From Cystobacter ferrugineus (GTDB taxonomy: Bacteria; Myxococcota; Myxococcia; Myxococcales; Myxococcaceae): 48,785 nucleotides of DNA. Shown piece by piece: positions 402-11,291 of this stretch. Position numbers and translations under genes: made by a program. The first letter of the stretch is position 1; each line of letters opens with the position of its first letter. The stretch is from contig NZ_MPIN01000031.1 of NCBI RefSeq assembly GCF_001887355.1, positions 1-48,785 on the forward strand, given 5' to 3'. The notes beneath the pieces were generated by a model. It was not told where the DNA came from. It made no database searches and saw only the letters and a program-made list of their open reading frames with translations.

Positions 402-1085
402 CTAGAACTTCAGCTTGCGTATCTCCTTCCCAGGCGATTCCGAGGGCCTGGGCGTGGCTGTTCTCGGGGCCCGGCGAGACCTGGAAGGCTGCGGCTCGGT
501 AGCGGGGACGCCCTCGCTCAAGATGCGCTCGATCTCAGACACGGGAATGCGCTGGTGCCCGTTGACGTCCACCGTCTTGATGCGGCCCGAGGCGATGAAC
601 TGCGCCAGGGTGGTGGCCCGATCCATCCCGAGGCGACGGGCTGCCTCTTTCTTCGACAACAGCCCGGAACTGGTCTTGTGCTGCTGACGGGCCAGGACTG
701 GAGACATGGCGGGGATCGGCAAGACCGGGAGGGCCGAACCCGCGCTGAGTCGCGCCAGCAGGTGCCGGTTCACCTCCACCGCGCGCTCCTCGGGCTCCAT
801 CGCCTTGCGGCATTCAACGCAGGGCATGTCGAGTTCCTGCTCTGTCGGAGGCCGGTACGGGTGCCACTCCCACCACTCCGTGCATCGTCTGCACACCCAT
901 CCGTCGGGACGCCCCCGCCTCACGGGAAGTGGAAGACGGAGGAACTCCGGAGGAGGCGGCGGCGGTGGCGCGCAGATGGCTTCAGTCCGAATGGGCGGTA
1001 GCCGGGCTGGTTTCTTGGTGTCGAGAAGCTTTGGCTCCTCGGAACCTGCTGCTGGCTTCTCGACCTCTTCCCTGTTGGTCGTCAT
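402..1085 (-). CDS. zinc-finger and excisionase-type HTH DNA-binding protein
   Basis: About 227 residues. The N-terminal part is Pro-rich with a run of seven prolines. Then come two CxxC pairs (VCRRC and PCVEC, about residues 65-93), which look like a zinc ribbon. A C-terminal MerR/excisionase-like helix-turn-helix follows (LLSKKEAARRLGMDRAT, then a wing ending in VSEIERIL). The tail is basic. The ATG at 1085 follows a GAGG; a GTG three bases upstream is an alternative. Proteins of this kind act as excision factors or local regulators on mobile elements, which fits the island, but the exact role is inference. Confidence 0.65.
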   Translation of the reverse strand: MTTNREEVEKPAAGSEEPKLLDTKKPARLPPIRTEAICAPPPPPPPEFLRLPLPVRRGRPDGWVCRRCTEWWEWHPYRPPTEQELDMPCVECRKAMEPEERAVEVNRHLLARLSAGSALPVLPIPAMSPVLARQQHKTSSGLLSKKEAARRLGMDRATTLAQFIASGRIKTVDVNGHQRIPVSEIERILSEGVPATEPQPSRSRRAPRTATPRPSESPGKEIRKLKF

Positions 1086-1118
1086 CACCCATCACCTCGA
1101 CCGGGGACGCCTGCTCGA

Positions 1119-1358: not shown

Positions 1359-2897
1359 GTGAGCAACCAGCTTGAGGAACGGCACCATCACGAGTTGGAC
1401 TCGGTGCTCTCCGCGTTGCGAGATCGAGCGCAGGCGGGCCCGACCGGGCTCCTGGACACCGCCATCAACGTCATCGTCCGCGTCGAGCAACTTCAACGTG
1501 CGCAAGTAGGTGATGCCGAAGCCCAGCTCCTCGCAGAACGGCTGGCGGAGTGGCTCCATCATCTCGCCGCGTGGCTGGAGTCCAACAAGCCGAAACTCTC
1601 CCAGGAATACGAGGGGATGCTGGGCTTGGATGCCGCCCTCGCAATGTACCTGCGGACTTACTTCGGACAGGAGGGCGAAGAGGTTACCGCGAGGCTTGCG
1701 ACTCCAGCCCGCATGGCCTGGGACGATTACAAGCGCAGCGCGAGCATCTTCGCCCTTCATGGGCTCTTTCGTCGATTGAAGGGAGATCCTCAAGGCTCGC
1801 CGCTCAACGCGCTGCTGGATTTGGTGTGGAAGCTGTGGGTGAAGCCGGACCAGGCCGCCGTCACCGCCCGCCGCTCGGAGTTGGAGGCCGCCGAGGAGAA
1901 CACGCCCGAGGCGCAAAACGAGCCACCCTCTCCGGCGCCGCAGATGCCAAAGGTCCCAGCGGTGGCCAGCGGCGTGCTGACGCCGCTCTTCGCCGCCTTC
2001 TGGGAGCCGCACCGTAGCATCCAGGAGGAAGCGGGCGAGGTGCGCATCGTGGACCGTCACCGTAGGACCGTGGGCCAGCTCCGGTTGGAGGGGTTGAGTC
2101 TGGAGGAGAGACAGGCACTCCAGGGCAGCATCGACGACACCCAGAACCTCCCCACCCACCACCTGTTCCGGTGGCTGGTGGCGAAGGTGGCCGAGCAGGC
2201 ACAAGGCGATTCCGGCGAAGCTCGACGGATACTGGTCGAGGGGGGCCTGGACGGGCTCAGGAAGGATCTGGGCTTGAACAGCGCGAAGGCGAGTGGCGCG
2301 CTGAGGACCGCCCTGGAACTGTTCCAGCGAGTAGCGATTCCGCTGCCCGATGGGCACACGCGCCCGTTGCTCACCTGGACGGAGAGCCGCTCAGGGCCGG
2401 GCAAGCGGGCGAAGCTCACCATCGACGTGGATGACGCGCTGCTGCCGAGCTTCGTTTCAACCCTTGGTAAATCCCTCCGAGAGCGGGAAGCGAAGCGGCT
2501 GGTGCCAGTCCCTCGGCGGCTTCCACCCCTCCAGGGACATCCCAGCTCGCATGGCGCGCAGGCCGCGTTGCAGCTCCTGATTCTGGAGGAGTTCCGGCAA
2601 CAAGCGGGACAAGTAGCCGCCAGCGGCTACGCCATCATTCCGTCCGAGCGGTGGACGCAGATGTTCGAGGGCTCCGGGGTTCCGATGCGCCTGGACGAAG
2701 ACATCCTGGTCCGTTGGGTGGGGCTCGCGAATCCCGAGCAAGCGCCCTTTCTGTGGCGCAACTCCGATGACCCGGCCAACGCCTACCGGCTCGCGAGCAG
2801 ATACGAGGCGGACCATCAGCTCATCTCCAGGTCCGGCATGCGCGAGAGCCGAGGGCGCGAGATCCAGAGGCGAGGCTTGAGGCCGAGGCTCGGGTAG
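1359..2897 (+). CDS. large Rep-like protein of an integrated plasmid (putative)
   Basis: 512 residues from a GTG preceded by a good GAGGAAG. No family was recognised with certainty. The N-terminal half is helical, an Ala/Pro/Glu linker lies near residues 170-210, and the C-terminal half (about 285-490) looks like two winged-helix-type segments, including SERWTQMFEGSG. No catalytic motif is visible. Three direct repeats with an exact 22-bp period start three bases after the stop codon. A large basic protein followed by iteron-like repeats is the usual layout of an iteron-type replication initiator, so that role is inferred from context. The C-terminal tail is very Arg-rich. The alternative is an island protein of unknown function whose terminator region happens to be repeated. 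Confidence 0.55.
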   Translation: MSNQLEERHHHELDSVLSALRDRAQAGPTGLLDTAINVIVRVEQLQRAQVGDAEAQLLAERLAEWLHHLAAWLESNKPKLSQEYEGMLGLDAALAMYLRTYFGQEGEEVTARLATPARMAWDDYKRSASIFALHGLFRRLKGDPQGSPLNALLDLVWKLWVKPDQAAVTARRSELEAAEENTPEAQNEPPSPAPQMPKVPAVASGVLTPLFAAFWEPHRSIQEEAGEVRIVDRHRRTVGQLRLEGLSLEERQALQGSIDDTQNLPTHHLFRWLVAKVAEQAQGDSGEARRILVEGGLDGLRKDLGLNSAKASGALRTALELFQRVAIPLPDGHTRPLLTWTESRSGPGKRAKLTIDVDDALLPSFVSTLGKSLREREAKRLVPVPRRLPPLQGHPSSHGAQAALQLLILEEFRQQAGQVAASGYAIIPSERWTQMFEGSGVPMRLDEDILVRWVGLANPEQAPFLWRNSDDPANAYRLASRYEADHQLISRSGMRESRGREIQRRGLRPRLG

Positions 2898-2899
2898 CC

Positions 2900-2965
2900 G
2901 GAACGCTTTCCCCGAGACCCAGCAACACCTTCCCCGACTTCTGGGAACGCTTTCCCCGACTCGGA
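2900..2965 (+). repeat. three 22-bp direct repeats, iteron-like
   Basis: Units start at 2900, 2922 and 2944. Units 1 and 3 share the 16-base core GGAACGCTTTCCCCGA exactly. Unit 2 has GCAACACCTTCCCCGA. The last six bases vary. The 22-bp period is about two helical turns, as in plasmid iterons. The repeats begin directly after the stop codon of the gene at 1359. Being outside any gene and in exact phase, they are probably protein-binding sites, either a replication origin or an operator. Confidence 0.65.
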
Positions 2966-3016
2966 GCCCAATCCCGAGGAGTTACCAAGGGTTACGAGAG
3001 CCCAAGGTGCACACTA

Positions 3017-3032
3017 CACCACGCTAGTGGTG
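3017..3032. repeat. short perfect inverted repeat
   Basis: CACCAC and GTGGTG flank a four-base spacer GCTA. It lies 50 bases after the iteron-like repeats. It could be an operator or a nick/partition site of the plasmid-like module; no specific protein is implied by the sequence. Confidence 0.35.
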
Positions 3033-3107
3033 ATAGGGTCCTCCGCCCTCCGCTGGCGCTCGGGCGTCGTCCCCCTGTTCTTCTCCCTCATGTTTCCCTC
3101 CCATGTT

Positions 3108-3139
3108 CCGCAAGGAAGGCGCGAAGCGCCTTCTGGCGG
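3108..3139. repeat. strong GC-rich hairpin
   Basis: Two nested stems: CCGC with GCGG outside, and GAAGGCGC with GCGCCTTC inside, loop GAA. No T-run follows on either strand, so it is not a standard intrinsic terminator. It may be a structural element of the plasmid-like origin region or a repetitive palindrome. Confidence 0.45.
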
Positions 3140-3496
3140 AGGGATGCACCCGTTTCTCGGGCAACATGAAGTCCCACCATCCCTCGACTCATTTCCCATC
3201 TTCTCGGTGATCAACTCCTCGTTCTTCTTCTCCTCGTTCTTCTTCCACTCCTCGGCCGCTGGAAAGAACACCAAGATGAATCGGGAGAGCGGATCCACCC
3301 CTCGTCTTCGACTCCGTGGCGGAAGTGATCGAGATGACACCTCCCCCTCGCATTGAAGCTCAACCCGGAGGGTAAGAGGCTCACTGCTCGACCATTCCCT
3401 CGTAGGAGCAGGAGCAAGCAAGGAGCCAAGCTCTCTCGGCCTCGTACCTCAAGGTTCCCCTTCCCACAGATGGAATCCCGGCTGGAGAATTCCCGG

Positions 3497-4369
3497 ATGA
3501 ATCCCTCTGTCCGCTCCGCCCGACAAGCCGCCACCAGCGCGATCAACGGGGCCAAATCCCACGGTCCCAAGACCTCCGAGGGCAAGGCCACCTCCTCGCT
3601 CAACTCCGTCCGCTACGGGTTCTCCGCCTCGCATCTTCTTCTTCCCGGAGAAGACCCGGATGCCTACGAGAAGTTCGTGAGCGAGTGGTTCACCAGCTTC
3701 TCCCCCAGCACCATGCCCGAGGCCACCAGCGTCGCACAGCTCGCGGACACGAGCTGGAAGTTGGAGCGGCTGAGCCGGGTGGAGAACGGCCGGATGCGGG
3801 CCCGGCTGGAGGAGGAGCTGGAGAAGACGGACGAGGGCAAGACCTACGACAGCACCCGTATGGCACTGGCGATGATGACGGCCTTCGTCGAGTCCGTGGA
3901 GGTCATCCCCACCCCGCCGAAGGACGCGGACAGGACGAGCGCCTTCCTCTCCGGCGTGGAGAAGACCGTGACCGTGCTGCGCGAGGTGCCGGGCCTGCCG
4001 ATGGTCGTGGTGGAGCCCCTGGCCTTCGCGCTCAAAATGGCCGAGGAGAACAAGGAGACGGAGCGCATCCCCCCGGCCATCTACGAGAACCTGGGCAACA
4101 TGGCCCGGGTGGTGAAGGGCGCCCTCACCATGAAGCTGGCCGAAGAAGAGGCCGTCCTCGGTCCCGTGCGTGAACGACTCGCCGCCGAGGTGCTGCTACT
4201 CGAAGACGCGGATCTGCGGAAGCTGGAGAAGGCCCGCCGGATCCTGGAGGGCACCATGCAGCGGCAGTTTGCCATCTTCCACCAGCTCCGCGCTGAGCTG
4301 GCGAACACGAAGACGGAGAACACGCCTGAGGCGCAGGCGTTGAGGGTGAAGCTGCGGCTCGTGAAGTGA
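3497..4369 (+). CDS. GPKTxEGK-family protein of unknown function
   Basis: 290 residues from ATG 3497, which has a GGAG nine bases upstream; an in-frame ATG at 3470 lacks one. The N-terminus carries a recognisable signature, SHGPKTSEGKATSSLN followed by RYGF and then LLLPGEDPDAYEKF, seen in a family scattered through many bacterial phyla in multiple copies and with no known function. The rest is strongly helical and acidic (ENGRMRARLEEELEKTDEG), suggesting coiled coil. The next gene starts 66 bases downstream on the same strand. No enzymatic motif is visible. Family membership rests on motif recognition only. Confidence 0.65.
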   Translation: MNPSVRSARQAATSAINGAKSHGPKTSEGKATSSLNSVRYGFSASHLLLPGEDPDAYEKFVSEWFTSFSPSTMPEATSVAQLADTSWKLERLSRVENGRMRARLEEELEKTDEGKTYDSTRMALAMMTAFVESVEVIPTPPKDADRTSAFLSGVEKTVTVLREVPGLPMVVVEPLAFALKMAEENKETERIPPAIYENLGNMARVVKGALTMKLAEEEAVLGPVRERLAAEVLLLEDADLRKLEKARRILEGTMQRQFAIFHQLRAELANTKTENTPEAQALRVKLRLVK

Positions 4370-4435: not shown

Positions 4436-5359
4436 ATGCTGGTCACCACCATGACCGACAGTTCCAATTCCCCACCGCTGCCGGAGCAGCGGGATGAAAT
4501 CTTGATGACGCTGAACGAGGCCATCAACGCCTACGTCGTAACCAAGAGGCGCCACCCGCTCTTGCTGGCCATTTCCAAGGAGCTGGACAAGGTCATGGAC
4601 CAGCTCAGCCAGAAGAAGAAGACCAGCCGCAGGAGAGTCCGCATCTGGAACGATGCGGTTTTCCAACTCGCCCGCGACAGTTTCGACATGTTCGTCATCG
4701 ACCTCTTCTCCATCCGCGAGCGCCTGGTCAAACGCGGGCTCCTCCACCTTCTGGAACAGGACTGCTCCCGTCTACGACGGTGCGACCCGTCGGAAATTCC
4801 CATGGTGCCCGCCATGCTACATGGCGACATAGATAGCCCTGAAGACTACGCCCGCATTCAAGCCGAGGTGCAGCAGCACCATCGCGAGCTTGTGACCCGG
4901 AGCATTAATGGCGCGCTCGACCGTTTGATACCCGGCGAGTACCCGGTCACGCCAAAAGGAGTACAGGCGCTCGTCAAACGGTTCATGAAACAAACTGAGC
5001 CGCTGGAACGGGACCGTAACAGGGTCCGCGCGCACCGTTACGAGCGGCACTTCGACGCACGGCACTTCCAGTCTCTGGGCGACCTACAGGGCCAACTCGA
5101 CATTTTCGAGCGTCTCCTCGGTGACCTCTACCTGGTCCTTACGAGGAATGCGTTCATCTTCCATCTGAACTTCCACGCGAGCACGGAAGGGACTGCCAAG
5201 GATCTTGCGGACATCATGGTGCATGGGTCCATCAACAGCGCCGTGAACGCCTACGGTGTCGCGCGGAAGACCAATAAGAATCCGGTGCCCTGGTACTACT
5301 TCCATCGCAGGACGTTCTTCGAGTCGCCATCGGAGCCCAAAGAAGGAGGAGAAAGCTGA
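4436..5359 (+). CDS. HEPN-like protein, putative AbiU2-type ribonuclease
   Basis: 307 residues from ATG 4436 behind an AGGGGG; ATG 4451 is an alternative start. The protein is all-helical in appearance. Residues 65-105 (RRVRIWNDAVFQLARDSFDM and on) resemble the first helices of HEPN/AbiU2 proteins. Residues 194-200 give an R-x5-H motif (RNRVRAH) followed by more charged residues, matching the R-x4-6-H signature of HEPN ribonucleases. Established members act in abortive infection or toxin-antitoxin systems. No antitoxin such as a MNT partner lies next to it. Base composition looks lower in GC than the core genes, in keeping with transfer. Family assignment is inference from pattern. Confidence 0.5.
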   Translation: MLVTTMTDSSNSPPLPEQRDEILMTLNEAINAYVVTKRRHPLLLAISKELDKVMDQLSQKKKTSRRRVRIWNDAVFQLARDSFDMFVIDLFSIRERLVKRGLLHLLEQDCSRLRRCDPSEIPMVPAMLHGDIDSPEDYARIQAEVQQHHRELVTRSINGALDRLIPGEYPVTPKGVQALVKRFMKQTEPLERDRNRVRAHRYERHFDARHFQSLGDLQGQLDIFERLLGDLYLVLTRNAFIFHLNFHASTEGTAKDLADIMVHGSINSAVNAYGVARKTNKNPVPWYYFHRRTFFESPSEPKEGGES

Positions 5360-6076: not shown

Positions 6077-6520
6077 TCAGTCCGGCTCTCCGGTACGGGG
6101 CGGTTGCTCCTCCTGCGCGCCGGGCTGGGCGGGAGGGCTCTCCTCTAACGGATGGGTGGGCTCCGTTCCCGCTACTGGACGGGGTTGCTCGGTCTCCTTT
6201 CTCTTGGACGGAGACGGCCTCGGCGCTGCGCTCCAGTCCCAGGGCCGCAGAACCACGTCATCCCTGTCCGCGTACTCACCGGCGGTGACGTTGTGCGGCG
6301 TCAACAGGTGCGCCGGGTTCTCCTCGCCTCGGAGCACACGACCGAGCTGATGCAGCCTGGTCTCCACCAGCAGCAGGATGGCGCTGATGATGACGGGTGC
6401 GCTGTGCGTCCGTTCAGGGTCGGGCACCGCGCCCATGGCGACGCTGTCCGCGATCCAGTGGGCACCCTCGATGGCGTAACGAATTTCCCCCAACTCGGCG
6501 GAGAGGCTGACGTGTTCCAT
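6077..6520 (-). CDS. hypothetical island protein with disordered tail
   Basis: 147 residues. The start at 6520 follows a perfect AGGAGGA with proper spacing. The first 65 residues are a compact helical domain (GEIRYAIEGAHWIAD, then IISAILLLVETRLHQLG). From about residue 85 the chain is Pro/Glu/Lys-rich and likely disordered. No family was recognised. The strong translation signal and the change from ordered to disordered composition support a real gene. It is divergent from the sitA-like gene. Confidence 0.65.
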   Translation of the reverse strand: MEHVSLSAELGEIRYAIEGAHWIADSVAMGAVPDPERTHSAPVIISAILLLVETRLHQLGRVLRGEENPAHLLTPHNVTAGEYADRDDVVLRPWDWSAAPRPSPSKRKETEQPRPVAGTEPTHPLEESPPAQPGAQEEQPPRTGEPD

Positions 6521-6743: not shown

Positions 6744-8060
6744 ATGAAGCTGGGCTGGACGGCGGCGCTGCTGGTGCTCCTCGCCGGGTGTGCTACCGCT
6801 TCTCGGGTCGTGCGCCTGGACACGGGCCAGGCCGACACTCTCGTTTTCACCCCACGCTCCGGTGCCGAGCCGGTGAAGTTGAACGGCAACGAGTTCAAGG
6901 AGGCCGTGGCGAAGCGTGCCTGGGAGGTTCGGCCCTCCACTCGGCCCCAGGAAGCCGCCCGGAAGTTGTTCGAGGTCGAGGCGCGGAGTGGTTCGTACAC
7001 GTACGAGACACGCAGCCGCCGCGTTACTCCGCTCGGGCCGGACGAACATCTGGAGGGGACACCACCGGCGGCGGAGGTGGAGTTGACGCGCGCCTACCTG
7101 CGCTGGTGCGAGCGCACCGGCAGGCCCGGAGACTGTCTCCGCCTGCTGACGGAGAGCCCCATCGTCAACGGGGACGGCCGTTTCGCCCTGGCCCTGGCCC
7201 TTGCCAAGGGCGCCGTGCTCGACGAGATGCTGGAGGCGTTCAAGGACATGGCCGACCCCCACGCCATGGTGGCGGCGGTTCTCTGGACCTGGACCACGTA
7301 CATGCTCCTCATCTCGATTCCCGACGTGACGGTCTCGAAGGGGCTCGCGGCGGTGATGACCGCCACCCTTATCTCCTACGTGGGCGTCGACACCTTCTGG
7401 GGTCTCGTCGTGGGCTTCAAGCGGCTGATGGACGAGGCGGATCGGGCCGCCACGTTCAACGAGCTGCGCGAGGCCGGGGAGCGGTACGGGAAGGTCATGG
7501 GCCGCAACGCAGCGCGTGCGTTCGCCATGCTGGCCACGGTGGCGCTCGGCAACACGGCGACGGGGTTGGCGGCGAAGGTGCCGACGCTGCCCGGTGCGAT
7601 GCAGGCGGCGGCGCAGGCGGAGACGCAGGTGGGCCTCCGCCTCGCGGCAGTGGGGGAGGTCGAGACGGTTGCCGTGAGTGCCGAGGCCGTCACCATCACC
7701 CTTGCCCCCAATGCGGTCGCGATGTCGGCGGGAGATGGCCGAGGCAACGGTCATGTCACGGGCGAGTTGACAGGAGGCGCGTCGGATATCCACGTTGACA
7801 AGGTGGTCAACAGCAACATGCCGCACGCGGCGGAACGTGCGGTTGAACGGGCTGGTTTCTCAAGCGTGCAGGATGCTCGCGCGGCCTTGCAGGAGTTCGG
7901 CCGACAGATCGAGAAGTCGGGGCTTCCGCCGGGAACCATTCGGGACACGGCCCACGCGGACCGCGTCATCGTTCCTGGCTTTGGTCGAGGTGGTGCGGTC
8001 GTCTATCAGCTCAGGGATGGTGTATTGAAGCTGAAGACCGTTTTGCAGTGGAGGCCGTAA
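6744..8060 (+). CDS. sitA: SitA-family polymorphic toxin lipoprotein (SitA5-like)
   Basis: 438 residues. The ATG at 6744 starts a lipoprotein signal with lipobox LAGC (Cys16). The long conserved region (about 20-330) matches my memory of the myxobacterial SitA5 family: RVVRLDTGQ at 22-30, STRPQEAARKLFEVEARSGS at 65-84, LTRAYLRWCERTGRPGDCLR, AFKDMADP, then membrane-like helices at 175-225 and RYGKVMGRNAARAFAML. The last 90 residues (350-438) are a distinct domain ending in KTVLQWRP, presumed to be the toxin. Sit toxins are known to pass between kin by TraA/TraB outer-membrane exchange and kill cells lacking the matching immunity protein. The stop overlaps the start of the next gene (TAATG). 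The biochemical activity of the toxin domain is not established; a small RNase fold is possible. Confidence 0.8.
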   Translation: MKLGWTAALLVLLAGCATASRVVRLDTGQADTLVFTPRSGAEPVKLNGNEFKEAVAKRAWEVRPSTRPQEAARKLFEVEARSGSYTYETRSRRVTPLGPDEHLEGTPPAAEVELTRAYLRWCERTGRPGDCLRLLTESPIVNGDGRFALALALAKGAVLDEMLEAFKDMADPHAMVAAVLWTWTTYMLLISIPDVTVSKGLAAVMTATLISYVGVDTFWGLVVGFKRLMDEADRAATFNELREAGERYGKVMGRNAARAFAMLATVALGNTATGLAAKVPTLPGAMQAAAQAETQVGLRLAAVGEVETVAVSAEAVTITLAPNAVAMSAGDGRGNGHVTGELTGGASDIHVDKVVNSNMPHAAERAVERAGFSSVQDARAALQEFGRQIEKSGLPPGTIRDTAHADRVIVPGFGRGGAVVYQLRDGVLKLKTVLQWRP

Positions 8061-8284
8061 TGGGGCAGACGGATTCCAAGAAGAAGCTCGGGCACTTCGA
8101 ACTGCGAGTCTCCGAAGACGATCAGGACGTGGCCTATTTGCGTCTCCCAAGTCACCCCGGTGAGACCTGCAAGATGTCGAAGTCGATCAGGCTGGCCGAA
8201 CTCATGGGTTCCTACACGGGCCCTGATGTGGTGCTCGACTTCGACCAGGATGGAGTCCTGGTCGGAATCGAGATCCTGGCGTGA
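8060..8284 (+). CDS. DUF2283-type immunity protein for the SitA-like toxin
   Basis: 74 residues. The ATG overlaps the toxin stop codon by one base. The pattern DVAYLRLP in the middle and VVLDFDQDGVLVGIEILA at the end matches the DUF2283 fold (a short beta-rich domain ending in a D-G-x-x-x-GIEIL motif). The overlap with the toxin gene and small size argue for a cognate immunity protein that protects the producer and its kin. DUF2283 proteins are known from toxin-antitoxin-like settings; the immunity role here is inferred from position. Confidence 0.7.
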   Translation: MGQTDSKKKLGHFELRVSEDDQDVAYLRLPSHPGETCKMSKSIRLAELMGSYTGPDVVLDFDQDGVLVGIEILA

Positions 8285-8664: not shown

Positions 8665-9165
8665 TTATCGACGTATTTCTGCGGCTCCCTGACCTTCAAC
8701 GTCCCGGCGCAGCGCCTCGCGCGCGGCTACTGCAAGCTCGTCCGCGCGAGCGTTCTCCGGGTGGTTGGCGTGACCACGCACCCATTGCCACTCGATTTCA
8801 TGTATCGCTGACAGTTGGTCGAGTTCACGCCAGAGGTCCGCGTTCTGGACCGGGCTGCGCGCCGCCGTTCTCCAGCCCTTCGCCTTCCAGTTCTCCAACC
8901 AGCCCTCCTGGAAGGCCTTGCTGACATACGTCGAATCAGTGGTCAGTCGTACACGACTGGGAACCTTTAGTGCCTGTAGCCCCTTGATCGCGGCGGTGAG
9001 CTCCATCCGGTTGTTCGTCGTGTTCTGCTCCGCCCCCGTGATCTCTTTCGTGTGCCGGTTGTGCTGGGGCGAGACGAGGATCGCAGCCCAACCGCCCCAT
9101 CCGGGATTCGGGGAGCAAGCCCCGTCCGTGTAGATTTCAACATATGGGCGCGTCTGCACTGTCAC
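8665..9165 (-). CDS. rnhA: ribonuclease HI
   Basis: 166 residues from a GTG start; a second GTG six bases on is a possible start. All RNase HI signature residues are present: D14 in YTDGACS, E55 in NRMELTAA, D77 in TTDSTYV, H132 in [10 protein letters not shown] and D142 in RADELA. The protein cleaves RNA in RNA-DNA hybrids. The basic handle region ([11 protein letters not shown]) is present as in E. coli. It starts 16 bases after the stop of the TIR gene, so the two are probably one operon inside the island. A chromosomal RNase H would be expected elsewhere, so this is an accessory copy. Confidence 0.93.
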
Positions 9166-9181: not shown

Positions 9182-9928
9182 TCAGGAGGATGCGGCCGTG
9201 ATGTTCTCCGGCTTCAGCTTGAAACCAGCATCGATCAGCCGCTGAGTAAGCTTGGGGACGGTCTCGCGGACGTGGTCGTTGAAACCTACGTAGAGGATAC
9301 CCCCGGCGTCTGACGGGATTTCCAGGTGCCCCTTCTTCAGGATAGCGACCTTGGGCCGCCCCAAGCGAGAGAGCAGCATTCCCATTTCGAGCACCACGTT
9401 CTGACGGGCTCGCGGCAGCTCGTCTTTCGGGTCGGTCTTTTTCGACCGCCCCACATCGTCGGGGGTGAGCAAGACGATGCCGAACTGCGGTCCATCCTCT
9501 GAATGAATCTCCGCCTCCAGGGCCTCAATGATCGTCAGGCCCTTGCCGGAGGTGTTCTGAAGGACGAACGGGTCGAGTCCCAGGCGGCGTAGGACAAGTT
9601 CGAGCTGATCCCTGGCGGTCTCATCATGGCCGTGGACGACGAATACCTTCGACTTCTTCGGATCGGCGGGAAGCTCGGTTCTAGGCAGAGCAGGCGTGGA
9701 ATCTGAGCCCGCAACGCCAGCGCTGGATAGCACCTTCGTCAGCTTGGTCGCGTCTGCCGCATCGCCCTGAACCAGCAGCGTCTTCTTCTTGCTGCTCGGC
9801 CACCAGTTGACGACAGCGCCGTTCTCGCTACGGAAGACGCACTTGTCTCCCTCTTCGCTCCAAGCCCCCTTGATGCCAGCGCCCTTGATGATCCCGACCA
9901 AATCGTCCTTCGAGCCAGCGAACTGCAC
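9182..9928 (-). CDS. TIR-like (CAP12/Pycsar-type, PF10137) nucleotide-binding protein
   Basis: 248 residues from a GTG. Residues 93-235 are a TIR-like domain of the predicted nucleotide-binding type: [17 protein letters not shown] at 94-110, [10 protein letters not shown] at 151-160 and [19 protein letters not shown] at 173-191, with E181 the likely NADase glutamate. Related domains are effectors in CBASS and Pycsar defence and destroy NAD. The N-terminal 70 residues form a separate small domain ([20 protein letters not shown], then TLLVQGD). This pattern is reminiscent of the TBP-like nucleic-acid-binding domain of RNase HIII, which is inference. No cyclase gene is adjacent. It is followed closely by rnhA. 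Confidence 0.8.
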
Positions 9929-10039: not shown

Positions 10040-11092
10040 TCAGCGCAGGGTGGGCACCTTCGTCGGGACGGCGTGCGTCGCGTAGAAGCGCCGTGTGGTG
10101 CTCGGACTCTTGTGGTTGAGGAAGGCCGCCACCGAAGCCGGGTCCGCGCCCTTCTCGATGGCCCAGGTGGCGACGGAGTGCCGGAACCGTCCCGGGGTGA
10201 AGGGCGGGATGATCGCCGCGTTGCAGGCTCCCTTGATGGCCAAGCCGTACTTCTCGAAGCTGAACGAGCCCCGCTCCAGCAGCCGCTTCCCGGCCTCCAG
10301 CACCTCGGCGGACACGGCGGTGCGCAAGGGCTCGCCGCTCTTGCTCTGGGGACACACCAGCACGCCCGCGATCTCCTCGGCCTCGCCCCGGTACGGCTCC
10401 ACGCTGCCCATCCTGGCGAAGCGCACCAGCTCCGAGACGTGCCATCCGGTGCCCGCCTGCACATCCATCCCGTCACGCCAGTGAGGCGCAAGGTGCTCGC
10501 GGGCGAGGAGATAGTGCTCCCGGGGAATCGCCTTGTTCCGCTTCCACTGTTCGGGCTTAGCCTGGGGCACGGTGAGCCGCCCGAAGGTCGGATCCTCGGC
10601 TACCGAGAGGACGTGCTTCACCTTGCGCAACCAGGAGTAGACGCGCTTGAGGACCGCGATCCGATGCCCCCGGGCCTTCGCTCCCTCCAAGGCGGGGAGG
10701 ATGTCATCGAGGAGTGTGGCCTTCCGCAGGTCGCGGCCCTTGAGTTGGTCGGCCCACCACGCGAGGTAGCCCTGCTGCTTCTTCACCCAGGTGGGGCTGT
10801 TCTTGTCCACGTCGCGCGAGTAGGCGAGGAATTCCCCAGCGAGCGGCGCGTCGAGGTAGATGGGCGCCTCGTGCGCCGAGCCCGCCGGGTTGTAGTGCTC
10901 CGGGTCGGCCTCGAACCGCTTGAGCTGCTCCATGGCTGCCCGGAGCGTGGTCGCCCGTGTGCTGACCTTGTAGCTCCGCCCGTTGATCATCCGGCGGATG
11001 ACGTAGACCTTGCGGCCCTTCGAGTCGTGGCGGATGAACCCGCCTTCCCACGTCTCCGCGTAGCCCTGGCTCTTGCCCGTGCTCTCGCCCAT
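10040..11092 (-). CDS. tyrosine recombinase (island integrase)
   Basis: 350 residues from ATG 11092; the frame stays open upstream but would run into the tRNA. The C-terminal half is a phage-integrase domain: GTGWHVSELVRF (214-225), K251 in PQSKSGEP, GRFRHSVATWA (301-311), FLNHKSPSTTRRFYATH (324-340). K251, R304, H327 and the nucleophile Y337 are present. The first Arg of the usual TGLRxSEL motif is His218, and the His of HxLRH is Gly301. The N-terminal part (1-170) holds the arm-type and core-binding regions. Orientation and position beside the tRNA-Asn 3' end are classic for a tRNA-targeting integrase. Confidence 0.88.
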   Translation of the reverse strand: MGESTGKSQGYAETWEGGFIRHDSKGRKVYVIRRMINGRSYKVSTRATTLRAAMEQLKRFEADPEHYNPAGSAHEAPIYLDAPLAGEFLAYSRDVDKNSPTWVKKQQGYLAWWADQLKGRDLRKATLLDDILPALEGAKARGHRIAVLKRVYSWLRKVKHVLSVAEDPTFGRLTVPQAKPEQWKRNKAIPREHYLLAREHLAPHWRDGMDVQAGTGWHVSELVRFARMGSVEPYRGEAEEIAGVLVCPQSKSGEPLRTAVSAEVLEAGKRLLERGSFSFEKYGLAIKGACNAAIIPPFTPGRFRHSVATWAIEKGADPASVAAFLNHKSPSTTRRFYATHAVPTKVPTLR

Positions 11093-11167
11093 ACGCCCGC
11101 GCCCTCCATTGGGGAGAACGTCCGGGGGGTTGCCCGTATTTTGCCCACGAGCAGGAGAGGGCAAATG

Positions 11168-11198
11168 AAAAGGGCCTTGAACTTTCGTCCAAGGCCCC
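11168..11198 (-). terminator. intrinsic terminator after tRNA-Asn
   Basis: On the minus strand GGGCCTTG (11197-11190) pairs with CAAGGCCC (11179-11172), loop of ten bases, followed by TTTT. It lies about 20 bases after the tRNA 3' end and ahead of the integrase gene, so it separates the two transcripts. Confidence 0.75.
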
Positions 11199-11218
11199 GA
11201 AATTACTTGTAAATCTTG

Positions 11219-11291
11219 CTCCCCGACGTGGACTCGAACCACGGACCTAGTGATTAACAGTCACCCGCTCTACCGGCTGAGCTATCGGGGA
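11219..11291 (-). tRNA. tRNA-Asn (anticodon GUU)
   Basis: A 73-base cloverleaf: acceptor TCCCCGA paired with TCGGGGA, discriminator G, D arm GCTCAGCCGGTAGAGC, anticodon loop CTGTTAA, T arm with GGTTCGAGTCC. CCA is not encoded. The 3' half adjoins the integrase gene, so it is the probable attachment site of the island. Confidence 0.95.

Follow-up and report, generated by a model that had tools for sequence, protein, structure and literature searches.

We describe here a proposed replication module at positions 1359-3090 of the window, i.e. positions 1-48,785 of contig NZ_MPIN01000031.1 of Cystobacter ferrugineus (assembly GCF_001887355.1), within an island that is integrated at a tRNA gene. 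A preliminary description, made from the sequence alone, had reported an open reading frame of 512 residues, three repeats in exact 22-bp phase directly after its stop codon, and further downstream a palindrome and a strong hairpin; all of these were recovered. The repeats lie in a block of almost entirely non-coding DNA that is better conserved than the gene itself, the linkage of gene and array recurs in every member of the protein family, and the predicted fold of the protein resembles that of known replication initiators. With a probability of roughly 0.8, we infer that this stretch is an iteron-type replication module, which would serve an integrative element while it exists as a circle between excision and re-integration. 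Its components are the following:

1359-2897, forward strand: 512-amino-acid initiator (Rep) of a proposed new family; GTG start, stop codon TAG at 2895-2897
1944-2858, forward strand: residues 196-500 of the initiator, predicted two-winged-helix iteron-initiator fold (AlphaFold2 model pLDDT 89, pTM 0.89; PDB matches)
2900-2915, forward strand: iteron 1, GGAACGCTTTCCCCGA, 16 nt
2922-2937, forward strand: iteron 2, GCAACACCTTCCCCGA, imperfect (81%)
2944-2959, forward strand: iteron 3, GGAACGCTTTCCCCGA, 16 nt
2891-3090, no strand: conserved block, proposed origin, nearly all non-coding; 150 of 196 aligned positions the same as in the relative from genome G020
3017-3032, no strand: palindrome CACCAC-GCTA-GTGGTG within the conserved block, found by reading the sequence
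about 3108-3140, forward strand: strong hairpin beyond the conserved block (3020-3160 folded as single-stranded DNA, z -2.84)

Iteron array and conserved block at the stop codon

A gap of 2 nt separates the stop codon from the first iteron, and the iterons follow one another at start-to-start distances of exactly 22 and 22 bp. In this array 12 of 14 columns are the same in the three copies, the maximum among 100 resampled sequences with preserved nearest-neighbour frequencies being 8. Across the 12-Mb genome there are two exact copies of the core GGAACGCTTTCCCC, and both belong to the window array. With three mismatches allowed, the single repeat motif was found 11 times in the window against 7.15 expected and is no rarer than chance; the significance thus lies in the phased array and not in the motif. 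As a control, arrays (at least 11 of 14 columns the same, period 18-26, 400 nt around the stop required) were sought at the stop codons of 150 genes predicted by our own script in eight loci. Three genes were positive, all of them members of the family described below, as compared with none of the other 147; the family member of genome G041 lies too near its contig end to enter this control, and the two contigs of G193 were not among the eight loci.

The family comprises six genes in 5 of 195 Myxococcota genomes, one each in the window, G020, G041 and G154, and two in G193. Whole-genome searches in a first round revealed a relative in G020 with 45% protein identity and a more remote one in G041; a profile of these two and the window protein then added the G154 gene and both G193 genes. 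Identity to the window protein is 24-44% in the alignment of all six. A profile scan of contigs returned three loci, all already known (the two G193 contigs and G041), and the matching metagenome-assembled genome records are JAKLEG01 (Myxococcota bacterium) for G193 and JAJYLH01 (Myxococcales bacterium) for G041. Beyond the six members the profile gave 13 matches at E 0.007-0.82; by eye, the ten that were inspected (L040-L049; not L050-L052) fell within unrelated open reading frames or on the antisense strand of genes, and no array in these loci exceeded 8 of 14 columns. The genome contigs yielded no homologue when searched with the window protein as a single query, the family of G193 (3 genomes) yielded no member beyond G193 itself, and the plasmid and phage searches with a G193 protein gave no homologue. 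In the viral contigs there was no homologue of the family and no occurrence (0) of the iteron-pair pattern.

All six genes have a tandem array at their 3' end, with a period of 22 bp in five and 21 bp in one. Measured from the end of the stop codon, the start of the best array block ranges from 79 nt upstream to 22 nt downstream, and 11 to 14 of 14 columns are the same in three copies, as compared with resampled maxima of 6-8 per locus. The repeat sequences vary by lineage, as judged by eye, and are clearly common only to the window and G020. Repeats that vary in sequence at a constant position and period are as expected of a co-evolving pair of protein and site, and the six natural protein-array pairs, with mostly differing repeats, would form a ready set for studying how the DNA specificity of an initiator changes.

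Between the window and G020, 150 of 196 positions (76.5%) are the same in the 200 nt that take in the stop codon and the DNA following it (2891-3090), compared with 858 of 1507 (56.9%) in the coding DNA, 192 of 364 (53%) in the DNA upstream of the gene and 159 of 359 (44%) in the stretch after the block. A non-coding block that is better conserved than the initiator gene next to it (about 77% versus about 57%) matches the expectation for a cis-acting origin. The block contains the iterons, a GAGGARTTACCA box, the palindrome at 3017-3032 and GGGCGTCGTCCC, the boxes having been picked by eye from the G020 alignment; 5 of 6 arm pairs of the palindrome, counted by eye on the same alignment, are retained in G020. 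The hairpin at about 3108-3140 sits beyond the block, where identity of the flank is 44%, and may be unrelated to the module.

Several other candidates in or around the block were rejected. DNA matches to it in G126 and G081 (E 1.9e-4 and 8.3e-4; 42-43 nt) lie inside long ordinary-looking open reading frames and were regarded as chance, as was an inverted repeat at 2459-2474/2978-2993. The heptamer CTAGTGG, common to a 15-bp motif reported for the IncQ oriV (PMC7557826), is too short and is broken in G020, and it was not used.

Predicted fold and comparison with known replication systems

In Pfam, PHROGs and NCBIfam no family matches the 512-residue protein at E 1, and tblastn found no match among 72,556 plasmid records, which include pMF1, and 50,697 phage records. 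A Pfam scan of the domain sequences of all six members at E 10 gave a single match, to one domain of unknown function (E 0.038), and a PDB sequence search with the family alignment gave two rows, the better at E 0.18. At the level of sequence, the earlier proposal of a new Rep family is thus supported.

Modelled by AlphaFold2 with the six-member alignment, the whole protein reached a pLDDT of 78, and residues 196-500 a pLDDT of 89 and a pTM of 0.89. When these residues were compared with the PDB by Foldseek, the first 39 rows and 41 of the 50 listed were replication initiators (best E 0.0066); after re-alignment, RepE54, pi, RctB or pPS10 RepA accounted for 46 of the 50 rows listed, rows titled only 'Isoreticular co-crystal 1' being counted with the RepE54 series. 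The best re-aligned match has a Z of 8.0 and a root-mean-square deviation of 5.2 over 185 residues, and the whole-protein model agrees with the domain result (best Foldseek E 0.024). The matches are suggestive of the two-winged-helix arrangement of RepE and pi, at the edge of what the tool regards as safe; what makes them persuasive is that iteron-binding initiators lead the list for a protein that had already been picked out by its iterons. The preliminary description had named two outcomes that would speak against it, a fold unrelated to Rep proteins and homologues lacking downstream 22-bp repeats; the predicted fold is Rep-like, with modest scores, and arrays are present throughout the family.

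The best fold matches are RepE of F, pi of R6K and RepA of pPS10 (Z 6.6-8.0), with about 185-196 aligned residues for RepE and pi and 115 for the pPS10 fragment. As in Rep_3 initiators, directly repeated and phased iterons adjoin the gene in all six members; the absence of a Pfam Rep_3 match, the extra N-terminal region and the position of the arrays 3' of the gene set the family apart from these initiators. Domains 2-3 of RctB, the initiator of Vibrio chromosome 2, match at Z 7.6 over 218 aligned residues. RctB, too, is a larger protein with additional domains. Its sites contain Dam sites, whereas no GATC is present in 2890-3140 and the window gene belongs to a mobile element and not to a chromosome.

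The layout of the locus is closest to that of IncQ plasmids. In the IncQ-2 plasmid pTC-F14, which has repA and repC, a 22-bp repeat present in 4.9 copies (7625-7732) spans the end of repC at 7681; the order of helicase, initiator and 22-bp iterons at the initiator stop is also that of our family, with respect to the helicase in three relatives. In a second IncQ-2 plasmid, pK433-qnrS, 3.0 copies of a 22-bp repeat mark the end of repC, and in G041 the iterons overlap the 3' end of the initiator gene as they do in IncQ; a stretch of pRAS3.1, used as an IncQ yardstick, gave no array at score 40. Three 22-bp iterons have been reported for IncQ plasmids (PMC4948828), and the 3 x 22 bp of the window agree with about three iterons of 20-22 bp as a mark of this group.

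Primase and/or helicase genes stand immediately upstream of the initiator gene in three of the six members. In G041 these are a Prim-Pol gene (PF09250, E 1.6e-12) and a DnaB_C/AAA_25 gene, directly upstream and gapless; contig C455 of G193 encodes a single fused Prim-Pol/AAA_25 protein; and G154 has an AAA_25 gene, before which there is a weak Toprim match (E 0.075). The other G193 contig, C554, stops at the initiator gene, and the neighbours there cannot be judged. Searches by tblastn with RepA of pTC-F14 detected the helicases of G193:C455 (E 2.6e-16) and G154 (E 5.8e-15) at 31-32% identity, and both are thus homologous to IncQ RepA.

There are also differences from IncQ. The initiator has 512 amino acids compared with 297 for RepC, the window and G020 are without a detectable helicase, and the primase of G041 and G193 is of the Prim-Pol type. 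Neither repB nor mobA is listed among the window island proteins scanned, with some open reading frames unscanned and a gap in the island. RepC of pTC-F14 itself shows a weak-to-fair match to Rep_3 (PF01051, E 3.7e-5).

The replication locus of pMF1 from Myxococcus fulvus likewise belongs to a myxobacterial mobile element, and both elements have a Sit-type toxin gene, which in pMF1 is part of a pair described as SitAI (PMC11705834). However, no array is found at the end of pMF1.14; the nearest pMF1 repeats are 2.5 copies of 21 bp within pMF1.13, some 190 nt ahead of pMF1.14, and 2.3 copies of 24 bp within pMF1.16. Homology to pMF1.14 was rejected at an hhalign probability of 0.1%.

With its IncQ-like layout, its RepE-like predicted fold and no sequence relation to RepC or pMF1.14, the protein would thus work like an iteron initiator of the IncQ/RepE type while being, in sequence, a member of neither group. 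What is unusual is the combination of a RepE-like predicted fold, an IncQ-like layout and, in part, an IncQ-type helicase in integrated myxobacterial elements; no report of such a module was found in the open-licence literature, as far as its text was accessible.

The integrated element and its proposed replication cycle

The features of the island that bear on its integration are the following:

402-1088, reverse strand: HTH_17/excisionase-like DNA-binding protein (PF12728 E 1e-5, just below the curated cut-off; phrog_66 E 3.8e-7)
10040-11242, reverse strand: tyrosine integrase of the island in its longest reading (PF00589 E 4.6e-9; phrog_1 E 2.2e-17)
11218-11291, reverse strand: tRNA-Asn, overlapped by the integrase open reading frame in its longest reading
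11214-11262, no strand: attR, exact 49-bp repeat of the 3' part of tRNA-Asn; attL at G000:C7:559966
1-230, no strand: right end of an insertion sequence that interrupts the island and whose left end is at G000:C7:561302; it has inverted ends and a CTAG duplication

The earlier placement of the island at a tRNA gene is borne out by the integrase, the tRNA-Asn gene and the exact 49-bp repeat. A tyrosine-integrase element at a tRNA gene was found for G020 as well, where the module lies within a 49.9-kb element with a 46-bp tRNA-Met repeat at both ends and an integrase of its own. For the window integrase, an alternative later start is possible at 11092.

Since attL stands on contig C7, 1.6 kb from its end, the extent of the island depends on how the two contigs are joined. 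The end of C7 and the start of the window both lie within the insertion sequence, at which the assembly breaks, and the matching inverted ends and the CTAG duplication make it very probable that the two contigs are neighbours. With the join drawn across the insertion sequence in this way, the island would measure about 12.4 kb plus the insertion sequence, whose family assignment is limited to a match of a 46-residue fragment to the IS1380 model (E 0.035). A broken second copy of the island integrase at G000:C7:559397-559994, directly left of attL and in the same orientation, was left behind by an element that formerly occupied this tRNA gene. Two genomes of the same genus, G002 and G003, have only integrase fragments at tRNA-Asn, 84-85% identical to the window integrase; together with the broken copy on C7, these indicate that tRNA-Asn is a reused site.

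The preliminary description had regarded the island as an integrated plasmid. The Rep/iteron replication module is retained from this view, as far as sequence and model can tell. As no homologue was found in the plasmid, phage and viral collections, 'integrated plasmid' is a less exact term for the island than an integrative element carrying a plasmid-type replicon.

We propose the following cycle for this element. The integrase and the excisionase-like protein (402-1088, reverse strand) would excise the island as a circle. The initiator, in which about 195 N-terminal helical residues would precede an iteron-binding part with two winged helices (about residues 196-485), would bind the three 22-bp-phased repeats just 3' of its own stop codon; as 22 bp correspond to about two helical turns, the iterons would be presented on one face of the DNA. 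The bound initiator would distort or open the adjoining conserved 200-bp block, and the opened block would recruit a replicative helicase, leading to replication of the circle. Iteron-bound initiator would also limit copy number, and the circle would re-integrate after replication. As no helicase gene was found in the window island or the G020 element, a host helicase or one supplied in trans would be needed.

Alternative readings and accompanying genes

Several points weigh against the reading of this stretch as a replication module. DNA binding, melting, helicase recruitment, copy control and excision are deduced steps. Members of the family are few (5 of 195 genomes), the relatives lie on draft contigs of undefined topology, and none of the plasmids, phages and viral contigs searched carries a copy. 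The domain of the window protein matches neither Pfam Rep_3 (PF01051) nor PF06504 at E 10, and homology to IncQ RepC (PF06504) was rejected at an hhalign probability of 0.2% against an alignment of four RepC proteins. The block has no clear AT-rich melting region, its 40-nt windows reaching at most 45% AT (50% in G020). Five tblastn queries for helicases and primases at E 0.01 found none in the window, the C7 end and the entire G020 element, the window island having an unsequenced gap between C7 and the window; RepA of pTC-F14 did not match the G041 helicase at E 0.01. Finally, the structural scores are modest (Foldseek E 0.0066 for the domain and 0.024 for the whole protein), TM-scores are about 0.4 or lower (0.43 for the pPS10 fragment), a Z under 8 may, according to the caution given by the tool, reflect a mere common arrangement, and the majority of the matching PDB rows are a single protein, RepE54.

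The strongest alternative is a decayed relic, i.e. a former replicon that is now a non-replicating integrated island, which for this copy we consider unlikely, though it deserves to be taken seriously. The insertion sequence that interrupts the island would fit with decay, as would the helicase gene not found by tblastn and the integrase fragments that are all that G002 and G003 retain at tRNA-Asn. However, the open reading frames of both initiator and integrase are intact, all 16 nt agree between two of the three iterons, the att repeats match at each of their 49 bp, and the block is still conserved in comparison with G020, where the protein shares 45% identity with that of the window. The nature of the module would be the same even if it were a relic.

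It is improbable that the array is an operator or a centromere (a repressor or ParB-like site) and that the protein serves only partition or autoregulation. Iteron proteins often autoregulate. Short repeats of pMF1 are described as ParB sites (PMC3235114). Such a role is nevertheless made less likely by the predicted fold, which is that of replication initiators, and by the primase and/or RepA-type helicase genes upstream in three relatives. In addition, the array lies downstream of the gene and not upstream, no ParA-family match is listed among the window island proteins scanned, and the protein after the origin has one sub-cut-off AAA_25 match (E 0.0028). A phage-type replisome organiser of a prophage or satellite is very improbable: lambda O binds iterons next to or within its coding region, the viral structure list includes a weak match to the lambda-O N-terminal model (E 0.7) and the helix-turn-helix protein at 402-1088 weakly matches a terminase small subunit (phrog_57, E 0.058), but the viral structure library gave no hit better than E 0.1, apart from phrog_57 no capsid or packaging family is listed for the island proteins scanned (some open reading frames being unscanned), and the absence of a homologue from the phages and viral contigs searched makes this reading less likely.

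A broader reading, which we offer as tentative and as the less probable outcome, is that Myxococcota host a replicon lineage of their own, in which an IncQ-type RepA helicase and the rule of 22-bp iterons at the initiator stop are combined with a different initiator. Some of its members would have entered tRNA islands and lost helicase and primase, and would now use host enzymes for replication and carry kin-killing and defence cargo. If this were true, a hidden integrated pool could explain the rarity of free plasmids in myxobacteria, from which two are stated to be known (PMC11705834). Should the module at 1359-3090 replicate as proposed, chromosomal islands in myxobacteria can be replicating elements, and it would be a second replicon, unrelated to pMF1, on which myxobacterial shuttle vectors have been built (PMC3235114); its compact size of about 1.7 kb from the gene to the end of the block would make it a possible new vector backbone.

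Two proteins are encoded directly after the origin, of 299 amino acids (3470-4369, forward strand) and 307 amino acids (4436-5359, forward strand), and could be part of the replicon. Neither has an NCBIfam match; a 338-residue reading of the former gave the sub-threshold AAA_25 match mentioned above (17.7 bits against a cut-off of 27), and the latter matches phrog_11533 at E 0.2. The island further includes an RNase HI gene at 8665-9165 (reverse strand; PF00075, E 1.8e-42), an unusual companion of a replicon that may have to do with RNA primers.

The cargo of the island includes a toxin gene:

6744-8060, forward strand: SitA5-family lipoprotein toxin (NF050093 E 3.3e-111)

The SitA5 family belongs to myxobacterial kin discrimination. 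Directly after the toxin gene, a 74-residue open reading frame (8060-8284, forward strand) without a family match could, by its position, encode the immunity protein of the toxin. A CAP12/Pycsar-type TIR protein encoded at 9182-9928 (reverse strand; PF10137, E 3.1e-33) is a probable phage-defence cargo. For a 147-residue open reading frame at 6077-6520 (reverse strand), a 91%-identical partial copy is present on C7 (L021 11545-11709) and a 30% match in the G020 element, and it appears to be a recurring gene of such elements.

At L004 15393-17035 (forward strand) in the G020 element, the initiator gene is divergent from a gene of the Rad52 family (PF04098, E 1.6e-6) and a PD-(D/E)XK nuclease gene (PF12705, E 1.3e-26), which form a recombination pair beside the replicon. 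Large genes near the initiator in G020 (L004 774-7291, reverse strand) and G041 (L006 157-4813, forward strand) look phage-defence-like when read by eye.

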